From the NCBI GenBank assembly GCA_009781225.1, contig WQYN01000005.1, positions 1 to 34,447 of the forward strand: a DNA stretch of 34,447 bases, given 5' to 3'. The notes under the pieces are model-generated. The model was not told the DNA's origin, searched no databases, and worked only from the letters and a program-made list of their open reading frames with translations. Positions 18,817 through 25,198 of this stretch are shown here, piece after piece. Made by a program: the position numbers and the translations under genes. This DNA comes from Micrococcales bacterium. Lineage in GTDB: Bacteria > Actinomycetota > Actinomycetes > Actinomycetales > WQXJ01. Within the stretch, counting starts at the first letter, position 1. Each line of letters opens with the position of its first letter.

Positions 18817-18915
18817 ATGACCGCCACTCGCGCACACGAGGCCATCCTCATGGCGATCGCCGTGATCGTCGCGGTCGGCTGGCGTCGCCTCTTGGACCTG
18901 GTCAGAGCTCGATGA
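18817..18915 (+). CDS. 32-residue single-helix membrane peptide, possible TatA relic
   Basis: ATG 18817 follows a strong AAGGAGG at 18802-18808, and the reading frame ends in ATGA overlapping the dgk start, so the peptide is translationally coupled to dgk. The sequence contains a membrane segment AILMAIAVIVAV followed by GWRRLLDLVRAR. That arrangement resembles the TatA hinge and start of the amphipathic helix (FGPKKLPELAR). In several Actinobacteria the order is pafBC-tatA-tatC-helY, so this could be what remains of tatA here; tatC is absent from the window. Alternatively it is a leader peptide controlling dgk. The ribosome binding site makes real translation likely. Confidence 0.6.
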   Translation: MTATRAHEAILMAIAVIVAVGWRRLLDLVRAR

Positions 18916-19841
18916 CCGGTGCCCTTGGCGTCGTGGTGAACCCCACCGCCGGGGCAGGAAGAGCCAAGCAATCGGGGGCGCGCGCCATTGCCGCCCTCGC
19001 CGCCCAGGGACACGACGTCGTGGACCTCTCCGCCTCGGGACTCAATGCGGCGATGGCTTCTGTGCGCCAGGGAATCGTCTCGGGGATTTCCGCCCTGATT
19101 GTCGTGGGCGGGGACGGAATGGTGAACCTCGGTGTGAACGCTGTCGCCTCCACCTCGCTGCCTCTGGGAATCATCGCCGAGGGGACCGGCAACGACATTG
19201 CCCGAGGCCTGGGCCTCCCCATCCGCGACGTGCGCGCCTCCGTCCGGCTCATCGACGAGGCCCTGTCTTTAGGAAGCACCCGCGCCATCGACGCTCTGCG
19301 CATCACTGACGCTGTCCATTCCCGCATGGTTTTCTGGTGCGCCGGCGCCCTGTCCGTCGGCTTCGACGCCGCCGTCAACGCCCGCACCAACGCCATGACC
19401 TGGCCCTCTGGTCGCCTGCGCTACGTCCGCGCTCTGTTCGGCGAGCTTGCGCGCTTTCGCCCCTACGGCTACCGCGTCATCATCGACGGGGTTGCCTCCG
19501 AGCTCGCCGCGACCCTGATTTGCGTCGCCAACTCCAAAGACTTTGGCGGCGGCATGCGGATCGCCCCCGAAGCAGAGCCGGACGATGGCGTCGCTGACGT
19601 CGTGATCGGCGGCCCCCTGTCACGCTCCGCTCTCCTCAGGCTCTTCCCCAAGGTCTACCGCGGCGCCCACATGTCCCACCCCCAAGTGTCGATGACCCGC
19701 GGCCGAGTCGTGGTGATCGAGCCCGAGCCGGGCCTAGGCCAGCTCCCACCCCCCGCAATGGCCGATGGCGAAGCGGTAGGACCCCTGCCCTTACGCTGCG
19801 AAGTAGTGGACTCAGCAGTAAGGGTGCTGGTTCCGGGCTGA
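18912..19841 (+). CDS. Diacylglycerol kinase family lipid kinase
   Basis: A 309-residue soluble lipid kinase of the DAGK catalytic superfamily (DgkB/YegS-like), which would phosphorylate diacylglycerol or a related lipid for phospholipid recycling. The nucleotide-binding motifs are GGDG at residues 66-69 and EGTGNDIARGLG at 90-101, with NPTAGAGRA near the N-terminus. The C-terminal part has SKDFGGGMRIAPEAEPDDGVADVVI, typical of the family's second domain, and PAMADGEA. The start lies inside ATGA, overlapping the small upstream peptide. Its stop is eight bases from that of the convergent TIR-ATPase gene, leaving no room for a conventional terminator. Confidence 0.9.
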   Translation: MTGALGVVVNPTAGAGRAKQSGARAIAALAAQGHDVVDLSASGLNAAMASVRQGIVSGISALIVVGGDGMVNLGVNAVASTSLPLGIIAEGTGNDIARGLGLPIRDVRASVRLIDEALSLGSTRAIDALRITDAVHSRMVFWCAGALSVGFDAAVNARTNAMTWPSGRLRYVRALFGELARFRPYGYRVIIDGVASELAATLICVANSKDFGGGMRIAPEAEPDDGVADVVIGGPLSRSALLRLFPKVYRGAHMSHPQVSMTRGRVVVIEPEPGLGQLPPPAMADGEAVGPLPLRCEVVDSAVRVLVPG

Positions 19842-19849
19842 GGGGCTGG

Positions 19850-22309
19850 TCAGCTGGCGGATTGGTCGAGGCGATCAGCCCAGGCTTGGGCAGAGATTCT
19901 GATGGCGTCAATCTCTCTCAGGGCGTTGAGGGCAGCGTCTGCTGCAGGGCGAAGCATGCGTGAGGTGCGTGAGACAAGCGGGAGGAACGCGACGACCTGA
20001 GATCTCTCCGGAAAGTCGAGGTTCTCAGCGATCTTAGTGACCAATCCGTGCCACTCCCTCGGATCGACATCAAGGAAATCGCGGAGGTCCGGACTGGTCG
20101 TGACCCCTTCCAGAGGCTTTGTCAGCTCGCTCCAGGTCCGGCCTACAGCCTGCGCACTCTCTTCCAGCCTCTGTACCTTCGGATCGAGCTTGCGACGAAG
20201 GGCTGCCAGCTCCCCGGTGTGGGTCCCCGAACTCATGCCCTCTCCCAGGGTCTCGACTACTGCCGTGAACGCCTGGAAGAAGGCATTGATCTGGGTTGGG
20301 AGCTCCTTGGCGAGTCTCTTCGGGTCGTCAAGAATCGGTGGAAGCTCGTACAAGTCCCCGTCCTCGGTCGGGAGCTTGCCTTGAGATGCAGGCGTGGCGG
20401 GTGGTGCGGGCTCCGCAATCTCCCTCACGCGGTCGTGGAGCCGACTTGCCATAGCTCTCACAGCCTCGTTGTACTCCGAGGAGTCACGGCCGGGCGGGGA
20501 TAGGAGTTGGCTTGCGTCATACCAGTGGGTGACCATGATCGCCTGTCTCACCGGATCGGTCTCCGGGACGACTGTGACGCCCTGGATTGGCTGGACGATC
20601 ACCGGCAAGAGGGCGCGAGGTTCTGACCCGCTTTCTGCAACCGACTGGAAGCGGGTGAACTCCGTCCGACAGGCTTCGCTCACTAGGTAGGAGGGGGTGA
20701 CAGCAGCGACAAAGAAGGCGGACCCTTCGATCGCCTCGCGAATGCGGCGCTGCCAGTCCTGGCCCCACAGGATGCTCGCCGTGTCGGTGAACACCTCGAT
20801 GTCGGACCCGAACTGGAATCGGTAGGCGCGTGCCAAGTCCTCAGCGAGCTTGACGATCGCGCCTCCTAGGTAGTCGTCGTCTTCGCGGACGTAGCTGAGG
20901 AAGAGCTTGGCGTCGACTGGACGCTGCGGTAAGGAGGCGAGCGGGCGGGCAACAGGAGCAGGGTGGGGGAGTGGTGCTCCTCCGGTCGGGGAGGCAGTGC
21001 CCTGCTCGTCCATGCTTGCGGTGTACCCATCCTGACCCGCCATAAGCAGCCCCACCGGCACCGCCCAGATGCGCTCTCCGAGCTGGGTGACGCCATCCCC
21101 CGCGTGGACCACATACCCAGCGTGCAGCGGGACAGCATCAGCAAGTGCGCGAAGCCCCCTCGCATCCTGTGGCGAGGCCCCGACAGAAGACTTCACCTCG
21201 ATGCCCACATGGCGCCCGTCTCCTGAGGCGAGGACGAGGTCCACCTCGTGGCGACCCTTCTCGGTTCGCCAGGTGAAGGGATCAACCGTGAACGGCGAGA
21301 ACTGAAGGGCGGCGAGCACCTGGTTGACGACCCAGGTCTCAAAGAGCTGCCCGAGCCACTCGGGAGTGCTAGCCCGCAGAGGGTCTCTCGCCTTGAGCGC
21401 CTCGAAGACGAGGCTGGCATCTGTGACGTGGAGCCGAGCTCTCTGCCGGATGCTCTTGTGGGATCCGAGCGCCAGGTTGGGAAGGAGCCGTACAAGGAAT
21501 CGCCGCTCGAACAGGTCCAGGTGCCGCTTGACCGACCGCTCATCAGCCTCGGCTGTTCGCGCGAGGGCTGCGTAGTTGAGGGTGGTCGAGGTCTTGGCGA
21601 ACGCAGCCTCTAGGATCCGACGGGCCACCGAAGGGTCGGCCGGATCGCTTTCGCCCTCCAAACCCCGTCCGATCACGCCGTCGACCCAGTCGTTGATCCT
21701 TGCCCGGCGAACGGTCTGGGCGCCGCCTCCCAAGGACCACTCGGGGAGGCCCGCCCAGGTAATCCACTCGGCAGGAGTCTTCTTCTGCGCAATCGGCCGC
21801 TGTTCTGCCTTGAGAGGCGCACCAAAGAGCACATCACACATATCTCGGAGCACCTGGGGTCTCCCCATCAACTCCGGGGTGGAAAGCGGATGGAGGACCC
21901 ACCGTTCTACCCGTCCCGTGAGAGGATCGCTTCCCCCCAGCCCATCTGTTCGGATGCGAGCCGACCCGGTGAGAAGGATCCTGCGAGAAGTCCCTGGCTC
22001 ATCCACGAGTTCCTTGACGGCCAATGGGAGTCGGGGGAGCAGCTGAGCCTCGTCAATGATCGCCCGCTCGGCCAGGCCTCGGAGAAAGGACCGGGGATCA
22101 TAGTCGGCAGAGGCGAGGGTGTCGGAGTCCGCCAAGGAAACGAGCCCTCCGTACACTCCCTGCTCGACAAGCCGCCGCGCAACGGTGGTCTTCCCCACCG
22201 CACGGGCCCCCTGAAGGACCTTTACCTTGATTCCGTCCTCAGGGTGCAGGTATGACTCGACCGTGCGAGGCAGGATGGTGCCGATGATTGGCCTTTCGGG
22301 GCTGTCCAT
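19850..22309 (-). CDS. AAA_14/DUF4143 ATPase with nuclease-like fold fused to a TIR domain (putative defence protein)
   Basis: An 819-residue multidomain protein. Residues 1-180 form a P-loop ATPase of AAA_14 type: Walker A GARAVGKT at 34-41, Walker B IIDEAQLLP (D86, E87), and a sensor-like ILLTGSAR at 111-118. Residues 180-420 match DUF4143, with a PD-(D/E)xK nuclease-like core: E355 and D357 in RHEVDLVL, E371 and K373 in GIEVKSS. After a proline-rich linker (430-465), residues 466-575 form a TIR domain: FLSYVREDDDY, EVFTDTASILWGQDW, and SEACRTEF, with E550 at the position of the catalytic NADase glutamate (C-x-x-E). Residues 650-819 are predicted mostly helical and have no family I recognise. 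TIR domains in Thoeris, CBASS and other systems deplete or convert NAD, so an abortive-infection role is inferred. The gene stands alone, divergent from helY. Confidence 0.8.
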   Translation of the reverse strand: MDSPERPIIGTILPRTVESYLHPEDGIKVKVLQGARAVGKTTVARRLVEQGVYGGLVSLADSDTLASADYDPRSFLRGLAERAIIDEAQLLPRLPLAVKELVDEPGTSRRILLTGSARIRTDGLGGSDPLTGRVERWVLHPLSTPELMGRPQVLRDMCDVLFGAPLKAEQRPIAQKKTPAEWITWAGLPEWSLGGGAQTVRRARINDWVDGVIGRGLEGESDPADPSVARRILEAAFAKTSTTLNYAALARTAEADERSVKRHLDLFERRFLVRLLPNLALGSHKSIRQRARLHVTDASLVFEALKARDPLRASTPEWLGQLFETWVVNQVLAALQFSPFTVDPFTWRTEKGRHEVDLVLASGDGRHVGIEVKSSVGASPQDARGLRALADAVPLHAGYVVHAGDGVTQLGERIWAVPVGLLMAGQDGYTASMDEQGTASPTGGAPLPHPAPVARPLASLPQRPVDAKLFLSYVREDDDYLGGAIVKLAEDLARAYRFQFGSDIEVFTDTASILWGQDWQRRIREAIEGSAFFVAAVTPSYLVSEACRTEFTRFQSVAESGSEPRALLPVIVQPIQGVTVVPETDPVRQAIMVTHWYDASQLLSPPGRDSSEYNEAVRAMASRLHDRVREIAEPAPPATPASQGKLPTEDGDLYELPPILDDPKRLAKELPTQINAFFQAFTAVVETLGEGMSSGTHTGELAALRRKLDPKVQRLEESAQAVGRTWSELTKPLEGVTTSPDLRDFLDVDPREWHGLVTKIAENLDFPERSQVVAFLPLVSRTSRMLRPAADAALNALREIDAIRISAQAWADRLDQSAS

Positions 22310-22315
22310 CTGCTA

Positions 22316-22321
22316 AGCGTA
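22316..22321 (-). promoter_or_regulatory. -10 box of the TIR-ATPase gene, leaderless type
   Basis: The reverse strand reads TACGCT, six bases (TAGCAG), then ATG at 22309. There is no Shine-Dalgarno sequence and no recognisable -35 element. Just upstream (22331-22375) are two interleaved inverted repeats, GCTGGAA/TTCCAGC and TGCATCG/CGATGCA, shared with the helY promoter region, which could be operators. Confidence 0.45.
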
Positions 22322-22391
22322 GCGCACTGTGCTGGAATATCCATGCATCGATGTCGGAAAGTTCCAGCCGATGCAGGAAACCTCCACTTGC

Positions 22392-22397
22392 TAAGCT
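22392..22397 (+). promoter_or_regulatory. Extended -10 box of helY, near-leaderless
   Basis: TTGC precedes TAAGCT, which is followed by eight bases and the GTG start at 22406. TGC before the box fits an extended -10. No Shine-Dalgarno sequence is visible. Confidence 0.4.
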
Positions 22398-22405
22398 CGT
22401 CACCT

Positions 22406-25198
22406 GTGACTACCCCGGCAGAGTCCTACGCTGCCTTCCGCAGGCGACGGAACCTCGTTCCACTCGAGGAGTTCGCCGCTACCCTCGGGTTCGACCTGGA
22501 CCCGTACCAGATCCAGGCCTGCGAAGCTCTGCTCGACGGCAAGGGTGTCCTCGTGGCCGCCCCGACGGGAGCCGGAAAGACCGTGGTCGGCTCCTTCGCC
22601 CTGACCCTGGCGCTCTCCCGCGGCGAGAAGGCCTTCTACACGACCCCCATCAAGGCCCTGTCCAACCAGAAGTACCGCGACTTCTGCGCCACCTTCGGAT
22701 CGGAGAACGTCGGCCTCCTCACGGGCGACGTCGCTATCAACGGAAGGGCCGCCATCGTCGTTATGACGACGGAAGTGCTGCGGAACATGATGTACACGAA
22801 CTCCCCGGATCTGACGGGGCTGGGAGTCGTTGTTCTCGACGAGGTTCACTACCTCGCTGATCGCTTCCGCGGGCCCGTCTGGGAAGAGGTGCTGATCCAG
22901 CTGCCGGACCGAATTCAGATGGTCTGCCTCTCAGCGACCGTGTCCAACGCTGAGGAGTTCGGAGCCTGGCTGGCCGAAGTGCGCGGTGAGATCGCCGTCA
23001 TCGTCTCCGAACACCGGCCGGTGCCGCTTTGGCAACACGTCCTGACCAGCAAAGCCATGCTTGATCTCTACCTTCCGGGAGCCGAGGGCGACGAGACGCG
23101 GCTCAACCCCGAACTCGAGGCCTACCGCCCTGGGCGCCACGGCCACGGCCCGCCTGGGCACGGCCACAGCCGGGGGAAGGGAGCGCGCCGCAACGACCCC
23201 CGCCGCTCGCCCCCGCGATTCGCGGTCGTGGAAGCCCTTGACCGCGACGGCTTGCTCCCCGCGATCTTCTTTGTCTTCTCCCGCGCCGGCTGCGAGAAGG
23301 CCGTTGACGAGTGCCTCACCGCTGGCTTACGTCTGACCAGCCGCACCGAAGCCCGCGACATTGCGAACCTCATCGACGCCGCTGCGGCCGACATTTCGCC
23401 CGCTGACCTCGAAGTTCTCGGCTTCTCTAGCTTCCGCGCTGCCGCCGAGGCTGGCTTTGCCGCCCACCACGCGGGGTTGCTGCCCGCCTTCAAACAAGCG
23501 ATCGAGCTGGCCTTCCAACAGGGCCTGGTCAAGTGCGTTTTCGCCACCGAGACACTCTCGCTCGGCATCAACATGCCAGCCCGAACCGTCGCGATGGACC
23601 GCCTGGACAAGTGGAACGGATCCGAGCACGCGGCGCTGACTCCCGGGGAATACACCCAGCTCACGGGCCGTGCCGGGCGCCGCGGCATCGACGTTGAGGG
23701 CCACGCGGTAGTGGTCATCCACCGCGACTTCGACCCGCAAGGCCTCGGCTCGCTCGCCTCGAAACGCACCTACCCCCTGCGCTCGGCCTTCCGCCCGACC
23801 TACAACATGGCGGTCAACCTCATCGAACGCGTGGGCCGGGCCAACGCCCGCGCGATACTCGAGCTGTCCTTCGCCCAGTTCCAGGCCGACCGCGCGATCG
23901 TCGGCCTCGCCCGGCAGGTTCGCCAATACGACGAGGCTCTCGCCGGGTACCGCGCCGCGATGACCTGCGACGCCGGCGACGCCCTGGAGTACATGGAGCT
24001 GCGCGCGGCCATCTCCCAGGCCGAGAAGGACGCCTCCCGCGCCCAAGCCGCCGCCCGAGCCGACGCCAACGCTCGTCTCCTTTCCCACTTAAGTCGTGGC
24101 GACATCGTGCACATTCGACATGGCAAACACGCAGGCCAAGCCTTGATTCTCGACCCGGGTCTCAAGACTGCGCACGATGGCGTCCCTCCCCTTCCCCCGC
24201 CACATCCGCTGGCATTGACTCAAGCGGGCAAGGTGCGGCGGGTCCCTCCGGGCGACATTGCGTCGGGGCTGAAGCTGCTGGGACATGTGAAGGTGCCGCA
24301 GGGGTTTTCCGGACGCAGCCCCAAGGAGCGGTCGGATATGAAGGCGCGGATGCGCCAGGCGCTGGAGGGGAAGTCGAAGCATGGGGGAGCGGTCGCCGAG
24401 GAGGTGCGGGCGTCGGCGCGCGTGGCGCGCGAGGGGATTGAGGAGGCGCGGGCCCGGCTGAAACGCCATCCGGTTCATGGGTGTCCTGATAGGGAGGCTC
24501 ATGCGCGGTGGGCGCATCGGATCGCGCGGGCGGAAAAGGAGCGTGCGGGGGTCGTCGAGCGCATGGAGTCGCGGACGGCGTCAATCGCGCGGGACTTTGA
24601 TCGAGTGTGCGAGGTGTTGGCCCGGCTGGGGTATTTGACTCAGGTGGCGGGGGAGGCGTCGGGGGAGGTGTCGGGGGAGGTGTCGGGGGAGTGGAAGGCG
24701 ACGGATGCGGGGCGGATGCTGGGGCGGATCTACGCGGAGAAGGACATAGTGGTCGCTCAGGCGCTGCGTTCTGGGCTGTGGGAGGGGGCGTCGGGGGCTG
24801 AGCTGGCAGCGGTGGTAGCAGCGTTGGTGTACGACCCTCGGCGTGACGCGGAAGGGCTGCACCTTCGGGCGCCTCACTCCATCGCAGCAGCGCTCGAGGC
24901 GACAGCGCGGGAAGCACGCCGCGTGGGGGAGTTGGAAGCTGCGGTGGGACTGGGGCCGACGGGCGACCTCGACGCCGCGGCCTGCGGACCAATGCTTGCC
25001 TGGGGGAGGGGCGGGGGATTAGGGGATGTGCTGGGGGATGCACTGCTGACGGCTGGAGACTTTGTGCGGCTGGCCAGCCAGGTTGTGGATTTGCTGGGGC
25101 AGGTGGAAGGAGTGGCGCCCACGCCGGAACTGCGGGCCGCGGCCCGAGACGGGTTGGAGGCTGTTCACCGCGGCGTGGTCCGGGCTTCGCCGGGGTGA
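22406..25198 (+). CDS. helY: Ski2/Mtr4-like DEAD/DEAH-box helicase HelY
   Basis: A 930-residue superfamily 2 helicase. Motif I is APTGAGKT at residues 52-59; Ia is TTPIKALSNQKY; II is LDEVHYLADRFRG; III is CLSATVSN; V/VI are ATETLSLGINMPARTV and YTQLTGRAGRRGID. The C-terminal half matches the DSHCT/rRNA-processing arch region of Mtr4-like proteins. It probably acts on structured RNA; its mycobacterial homologue lies beside tat and paf genes, which fits the pafBC gene upstream here. GTG 22406 (MTTPAESYAAFRRR) is chosen because residues before it do not fit the family. A G-rich 12-bp tandem repeat adds a GEVS-type run in the C-terminal part. Confidence 0.92.
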   Translation: MTTPAESYAAFRRRRNLVPLEEFAATLGFDLDPYQIQACEALLDGKGVLVAAPTGAGKTVVGSFALTLALSRGEKAFYTTPIKALSNQKYRDFCATFGSENVGLLTGDVAINGRAAIVVMTTEVLRNMMYTNSPDLTGLGVVVLDEVHYLADRFRGPVWEEVLIQLPDRIQMVCLSATVSNAEEFGAWLAEVRGEIAVIVSEHRPVPLWQHVLTSKAMLDLYLPGAEGDETRLNPELEAYRPGRHGHGPPGHGHSRGKGARRNDPRRSPPRFAVVEALDRDGLLPAIFFVFSRAGCEKAVDECLTAGLRLTSRTEARDIANLIDAAAADISPADLEVLGFSSFRAAAEAGFAAHHAGLLPAFKQAIELAFQQGLVKCVFATETLSLGINMPARTVAMDRLDKWNGSEHAALTPGEYTQLTGRAGRRGIDVEGHAVVVIHRDFDPQGLGSLASKRTYPLRSAFRPTYNMAVNLIERVGRANARAILELSFAQFQADRAIVGLARQVRQYDEALAGYRAAMTCDAGDALEYMELRAAISQAEKDASRAQAAARADANARLLSHLSRGDIVHIRHGKHAGQALILDPGLKTAHDGVPPLPPPHPLALTQAGKVRRVPPGDIASGLKLLGHVKVPQGFSGRSPKERSDMKARMRQALEGKSKHGGAVAEEVRASARVAREGIEEARARLKRHPVHGCPDREAHARWAHRIARAEKERAGVVERMESRTASIARDFDRVCEVLARLGYLTQVAGEASGEVSGEVSGEWKATDAGRMLGRIYAEKDIVVAQALRSGLWEGASGAELAAVVAALVYDPRRDAEGLHLRAPHSIAAALEATAREARRVGELEAAVGLGPTGDLDAAACGPMLAWGRGGGLGDVLGDALLTAGDFVRLASQVVDLLGQVEGVAPTPELRAAARDGLEAVHRGVVRASPG
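24646..24693 (+). repeat. Four 12-bp tandem repeats inside helY
   Basis: Four units begin at 24646, 24658, 24670 and 24682; the type unit is GTCGGGGGAGGT. They encode AGEA-SGEV-SGEV-SGEW. Unit length is a multiple of three, so copy-number change keeps the frame. Each unit carries one GGGGGAG. Confidence 0.85.

Follow-up and report, generated by a model that had tools for sequence, protein, structure and literature searches.

A single-gene insertion between dgk and helY encodes a fusion of a PDC-S01-like ATPase with a TIR-helical-bundle module

The locus and the encoded protein

The stretch of DNA analysed here (the window, 34,447 nucleotides from a Micrococcales bacterium) carries an uninterrupted, ATG-started open reading frame of 819 aa on the minus strand, flanked by a dgk-like and a helY-like gene on the plus strand. 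A preliminary description made from the sequence had placed it antisense between these two genes and eight bases from dgk; the stop codons of the two convergent genes, the ORF and dgk (19841), do lie 8 bases apart. The features of the locus, with the evidence for each, are:

18912..19841, plus strand: dgk-like lipid kinase gene, left flank (DAGK_cat, YegS_C)
19842..22405, no strand: segment of 2564 bp inserted where dgk and helY adjoin in relatives (relatives' loci)
19850..22309, minus strand: fusion gene, 819 aa, in the order AAA_14, winged helix, DUF4143, TIR, helical bundle (ORF, Pfam, conservation, AlphaFold2)
21869..22228, minus strand: AAA_14 ATPase, residues 28-147 (Pfam 2e-15; Walker A K40 at 22190-22192; DEAQ 86-89)
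21185..21637, minus strand: DUF4143, residues 225-375 (Pfam 3e-25; PD-(D/E)XK-like core E324, D357, E371-x-K373)
20915..21034, minus strand: low-confidence linker, residues 426-465 (pLDDT <50; solo PDC-S01 relatives terminate just ahead of it)
20414..20911, minus strand: TIR domain, residues 467-632 (TIR_2 match, Cat1 alignment, fold matches)
19856..20323, minus strand: C-terminal helical bundle, residues 663-818 (AlphaFold2 pLDDT 85.7; related tail in solo TIR proteins)
22406..25198, plus strand: helY-like helicase gene, right flank (start revised to a probable GTG at 22406)

The union of ATPase, DUF4143 and TIR in one chain, as first proposed, is confirmed by three Pfam domains within the single frame, the TIR_2 match covering residues 470-574 (1.7e-12). 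The scores of DUF4143, AAA_14 and TIR_2 all exceed the curated Pfam cut-offs and, therefore, the domain calls are not due to chance; together with the intact homologues described below they rule out a chance ORF or a frameshift artefact. The protein displays the motifs GARAVGKT (K40) and IIDEAQ, followed by HEVD (D357) and EVK (K373, encoded at 21191-21193) in the DUF4143 core, and by SEACRTE in the TIR domain, which includes the putative catalytic E550 (20660-20662). Secondary structure prediction places a winged-helix-like stretch within the DUF4143 helices (residues 246-270). An AlphaFold2 model built on an alignment of nine proteins has a mean pLDDT of 77 for the whole protein; the surroundings of E550 are well predicted and two segments between modules (426-465 and 634-661) are of low confidence. 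The C-terminus, reported earlier as helical and of no recognised family, is indeed confidently predicted as a simple bundle of about 155 residues that bears no Pfam name and no Pfam repeat family of the kind found in C-terminal sensors (LRR, TPR, WD), and among solved structures it matched generic or designed helical bundles alone (best E 0.03).

Homologues and the history of the two modules

Our searches were made in genome samples from a single phylum and in collections of plasmids, phages and viruses. The order AAA_14-DUF4143-TIR recurs as a full-length fusion in 6 of the 396 genomes sampled from the order, i.e. the host genome G000 (two copies, the second, on contig C40, being a paralogue with 44% identity), G017 and G014 from the same family, and G351, G067 and G115 from other families; a further full-length homologue is present in the Micrococcales MAG WRCL01000011.1. 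The fusion is thus rare and patchy in the order. Mobiluncus mulieris ATCC 35243 encodes an ATPase-DUF4143-TIR protein devoid of the helical tail, which indicates that this module is not fixed. The homologues are intact, so that the concern that relatives might exist solely as degraded genes falls away. In the samples of the class (395 genomes, E<=1e-55) and of the phylum (296 genomes, E<=1e-80) the window's own genome alone carried the fusion, these strict thresholds being liable to miss very diverged fusions. No full-length fusion was found in the phage or plasmid collections, the plasmid matches being confined to the ATPase half or short TIR stretches, and spread by viruses was discarded, given no relative in viral_contigs (searched with a single pattern) and no full-length phage match.

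Although the other eight proteins are 27-43% identical to the window protein, the residues expected at the active sites do not vary among the nine aligned proteins, the window's included. K40, D86-E87, E324, W347-R348, E355, D357, E371 and K373 are invariant (9/9) in the ATPase/DUF4143 half, as are F470, S472, D477, C547, E550 and F554 (9/9) in the TIR domain, where the S-x-x-C-x-x-E signature is likewise invariant. K40, K373 and E550 had been singled out, at the correct positions, in the preliminary description. Such invariance of catalytic residues speaks for all three sites, ATPase, nuclease-like and TIR, being in use.

The ATPase half, initially characterised as widespread and poorly understood, can be placed more precisely. 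Residues 25-424 match the PADLOC PDC-S01 model PDLC04790 at 5.2e-79, nearly end to end (model positions 25-419 of 422), with the Walker and PD-(D/E)XK-like residues kept; judged by this match residues 1-425 amount to an entire PDC-S01 protein, and the end points of solo PDC-S01 relatives roughly coincide with residue ~425 of the fusion. Recent surveys regard PDC-S01, with its ATPase and PD-(D/E)XK domains, as one of the very common candidate families in defence (PMC12988326; PMC13356809); it reportedly ranks fourth among defence calls in prokaryotes, and most PDCs are described as awaiting validation (PMC12988326). PDC-S01 models comprise ~375-450 positions and end where the linker starts, whereas the fusion adds a TIR-bundle module of ~360 aa.

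This second module also occurs by itself. Solo proteins of ~370-400 aa with the matching TIR-linker-bundle order, but without the ATPase-nuclease half, are encoded in other genomes of the same taxonomic order, all three with an intact S-x-x-C-x-x-E:

L051:1444-2568, solo TIR-bundle protein
L052:1480-2580, solo TIR-bundle protein
L053:215-1435, solo TIR-bundle protein

The TIR profile retrieved them with E values of 6e-28 to 2e-32. Of their tails, that of L051 matched the bundle profile at 6.8e-6, against 0.042 for the best shuffle, whereas those of L052 and L053 taken singly scored no higher than shuffles or barely so; an alignment of the solo tails matched the bundle in hhalign (P 6e-5, probability 65%). 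Since both the PDC-S01 half and the TIR-bundle exist alone, the fusion apparently brought together two modules that were each already complete. The tail, found with TIR in stand-alone proteins, belongs to the TIR module and is not an obvious dedicated sensor; given that it accompanies TIR and that the Mobiluncus homologue does without it, a role within that module, in assembly or regulation, is more likely than the dedicated infection sensing envisaged at first. A split two-gene form, with a TIR gene beside a DUF4143 gene, was sought next to the solo TIRs and solo ATPases examined and was absent.

In a tree of 15 TIRs the fused domains form one clade (support 98/97) against six solo TIRs, and the ATPase tree has a 100/100 clade in which fused and solo proteins intermingle. 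The simplest reading of both trees would be a single fusion followed by several TIR losses, the comparison of 15 TIRs including several long branches and unsettled deep branches. These data also bear on the idea that DUF4143 acts as the chief effector through its nuclease, TIR and bundle cleaving no NAD and serving as a scaffold on which the ATPase-nuclease is assembled and clustered. The nuclease-like residues are invariant, solo PDC-S01 proteins, including sisters in the same clade, manage without TIR, and many TIR domains are scaffolds. However, the S-x-x-C-x-x-E conserved throughout nine diverged proteins would be needless for a mere scaffold, and we regard this alternative as rather unlikely.

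With 2.56 Mb in 254 contigs, the host genome contains ~20 AAA_14/DUF4143 places (e.g. L003-L008), a marked expansion in so small a genome; several of these are fragments or contain stops. One host DUF4143 protein (G000:C16) was considered as another effector fusion and rejected, its long frame resembling an upstream start extension.

Insertion site and gene neighbourhood

Comparison of the dgk-helY junction among relatives, as the preliminary description had suggested, revealed that both genes abut, overlap or leave a short gap, without the fusion gene, in 14 of 19 loci (widest gap ~250 bp, in L028), dgk being outside the fetched flank in the remaining five. This adjacency identifies the fusion gene as a single-gene insertion, whose 2564-bp segment contains the gene and ~96 bp upstream of it, and nothing else. 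By comparison with the relatives, helY probably starts at GTG 22406, the call at ATG 22343 being presumably overlong. The fusion gene is less GC-rich than dgk (64.0%, GC3 73.8%, versus 68.0%, GC3 80.0%; window 66.2%), in line with the initial observation, but the claim does not extend to all its surroundings; some other window genes are equally low or lower and the dip is therefore a weak signal. A second insertion site was recognised in another genus, where the G067 fusion separates hrpA from an exo-endo-phosphatase gene, the two lying close together in three relatives. The gene adjoining the fusion in G351 has no counterpart in 20 further genomes of that genus, which places this copy in variable DNA. 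Neither a transposase nor clear terminal repeats were seen at the insertion, and a search for mobile-element ends yielded nothing beyond matches of 6-7 bp at the junctions.

Around the fused genes lie housekeeping genes, glycoside hydrolase genes, RCC1-like genes and genes of unknown function. Enrichment in defence islands, which the preliminary description had suggested testing for, was not seen; the scan of fused-gene neighbours, partial and of a small sample, included no known defence gene, and ten genes from these and one solo-TIR neighbourhood had no PADLOC match. PDC systems were typically poorly linked to other defence loci in a rumen survey (PMC13356809). Extra DUF4143 genes occur near three fused loci (G017, Mobiluncus and C40, in the last ~7 kb away), and the C40 paralogue adjoins a PIN-domain gene. 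The solo TIR-bundle gene of G123 (L066) has as neighbours a type I restriction subunit and a LuxR-type gene that is TIR-TM-like; among the neighbours scanned, no DUF4143 gene was adjacent to solo TIR-bundle genes. DUF4143 genes were also noticed beside secreted RCC1-repeat-like proteins in two genomes (L041:7143-10452 and L069:2561-6343), perhaps by coincidence.

Solitary insertions at housekeeping junctions would likewise suit a selfish or toxin-like gene whose ATPase-nuclease aids its own maintenance or transfer and whose TIR domain kills, with no specific anti-phage role. The multiplicity of DUF4143 places in one 2.56-Mb genome, the additional DUF4143 genes close to fused loci and the PIN-domain neighbour fit such a gene, but it is accompanied by neither an antitoxin partner nor a transposase nor clear terminal repeats, and the mode of spread of defence genes is identical. 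We consider this explanation improbable.

Relation to known systems and proposed function

We found no publication joining DUF4143 or AAA_14 with TIR in a literature search that covered few subscription papers, in agreement with the earlier statement that no described system of this architecture was known. The parts are of known kinds and their combination is apparently undescribed. The predicted TIR fold matches, with moderate TM-scores, NAD-binding or NAD-consuming TIRs, namely RUN1 with NAD, SPARTA, AbTir and Cat1, and its catalytic motif aligns with that of the NADase Cat1. What these effectors share with the fusion is the fold and the motif; the parts by which they sense (CARF, Argonaute-APAZ and others) are unrelated to AAA_14-DUF4143. 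The protein falls outside ThcB4 of type III Thoeris (25.2 bits, in the TIR region alone, against an NCBIfam cut-off of 220). STAND/NLR-type TIR receptors, such as plant TNLs or Avs-like proteins, also combine a P-loop switch ATPase and TIR in one chain, a functional analogy; in the fusion, however, the ATPase is AAA_14 alone by Pfam and not of STAND, NACHT or NB-ARC type, TIR is C-terminal, a nuclease-like domain is present and sensor repeats are absent.

The sole named family matched by all nine TIRs is FxsC_Nterm (best 5e-13), and many FxsC-like matches also bear S-x-x-C-x-x-E. As the nearest named TIR family, FxsC (NF040588) raises the alternative that the fusion is a regulator outside immunity, resembling the TIR-like FxsC proteins found in FxsA-type peptide (RiPP) loci of actinobacteria. 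Nonetheless, the fusion scores 45.6 bits, far under the 130-bit cut-off of the family, the ATPase-nuclease half is absent from FxsC, no FxsA-type locus was seen and the host genome has no FxsC match at E<=1e-15, which makes a role of this kind very unlikely.

On balance, we favour a solitary, horizontally moving and self-contained abortive-infection or conflict gene, most likely anti-phage, in which an AAA+ switch would drive a TIR NADase. This reading draws on the invariance of both sets of active-site residues in nine diverged proteins, the match of the ATPase half to a defence candidate, the likeness of the TIR motif and fold to NAD-binding or NAD-consuming TIRs, the single-gene insertions at two unrelated housekeeping junctions with patchy spread and one copy in a variable region, the common clade of the fused TIRs, and the related solo TIR-bundle gene next to the type I restriction subunit and the TIR-TM-like gene. 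Against it weigh the lack of defence-gene enrichment among the fused-gene neighbours scanned, FxsC as nearest named TIR family (far below its cut-off), the candidate status of PDC-S01 and the tail-less Mobiluncus homologue. We infer a course of events in which the ATPase-DUF4143 half would recognise infection-associated nucleic acid or another trigger and, upon ATP binding, change its oligomeric state; this would bring together the TIR domains, with the bundle aiding assembly, and NAD+ would then be cleaved via E550, conferring immunity by stopping the cell before phage release. A flexible linker would tie the PDC-S01 half to the pre-existing TIR-helical-bundle module.

It is tempting to extend this proposal, albeit more doubtfully, to PDC-S01/DUF4143 ATPases at large as NLR-like switches, the fusion clade being a one-chain immune protein in which nuclease-type detection of incoming nucleic acid is coupled to NAD depletion by TIR. 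If this possibility were true, the fusion could unlock what the entire PDC-S01/DUF4143 family does. As a conserved natural fusion it provides a guilt-by-fusion argument tying PDC-S01 to immunity, and its TIR domain, of a type that often degrades NAD, offers NAD as a measurable readout, hence a direct test of what PDC-S01 does.

Two other TIR proteins of a same-family genome (G007; L054:1486-2814 and L057:1411-3330) contain a tandem motif of ~40 residues, AELxECRxxVxELRQLATRFPDS, TPR-like in appearance, which may be a fast-changing sensor array.
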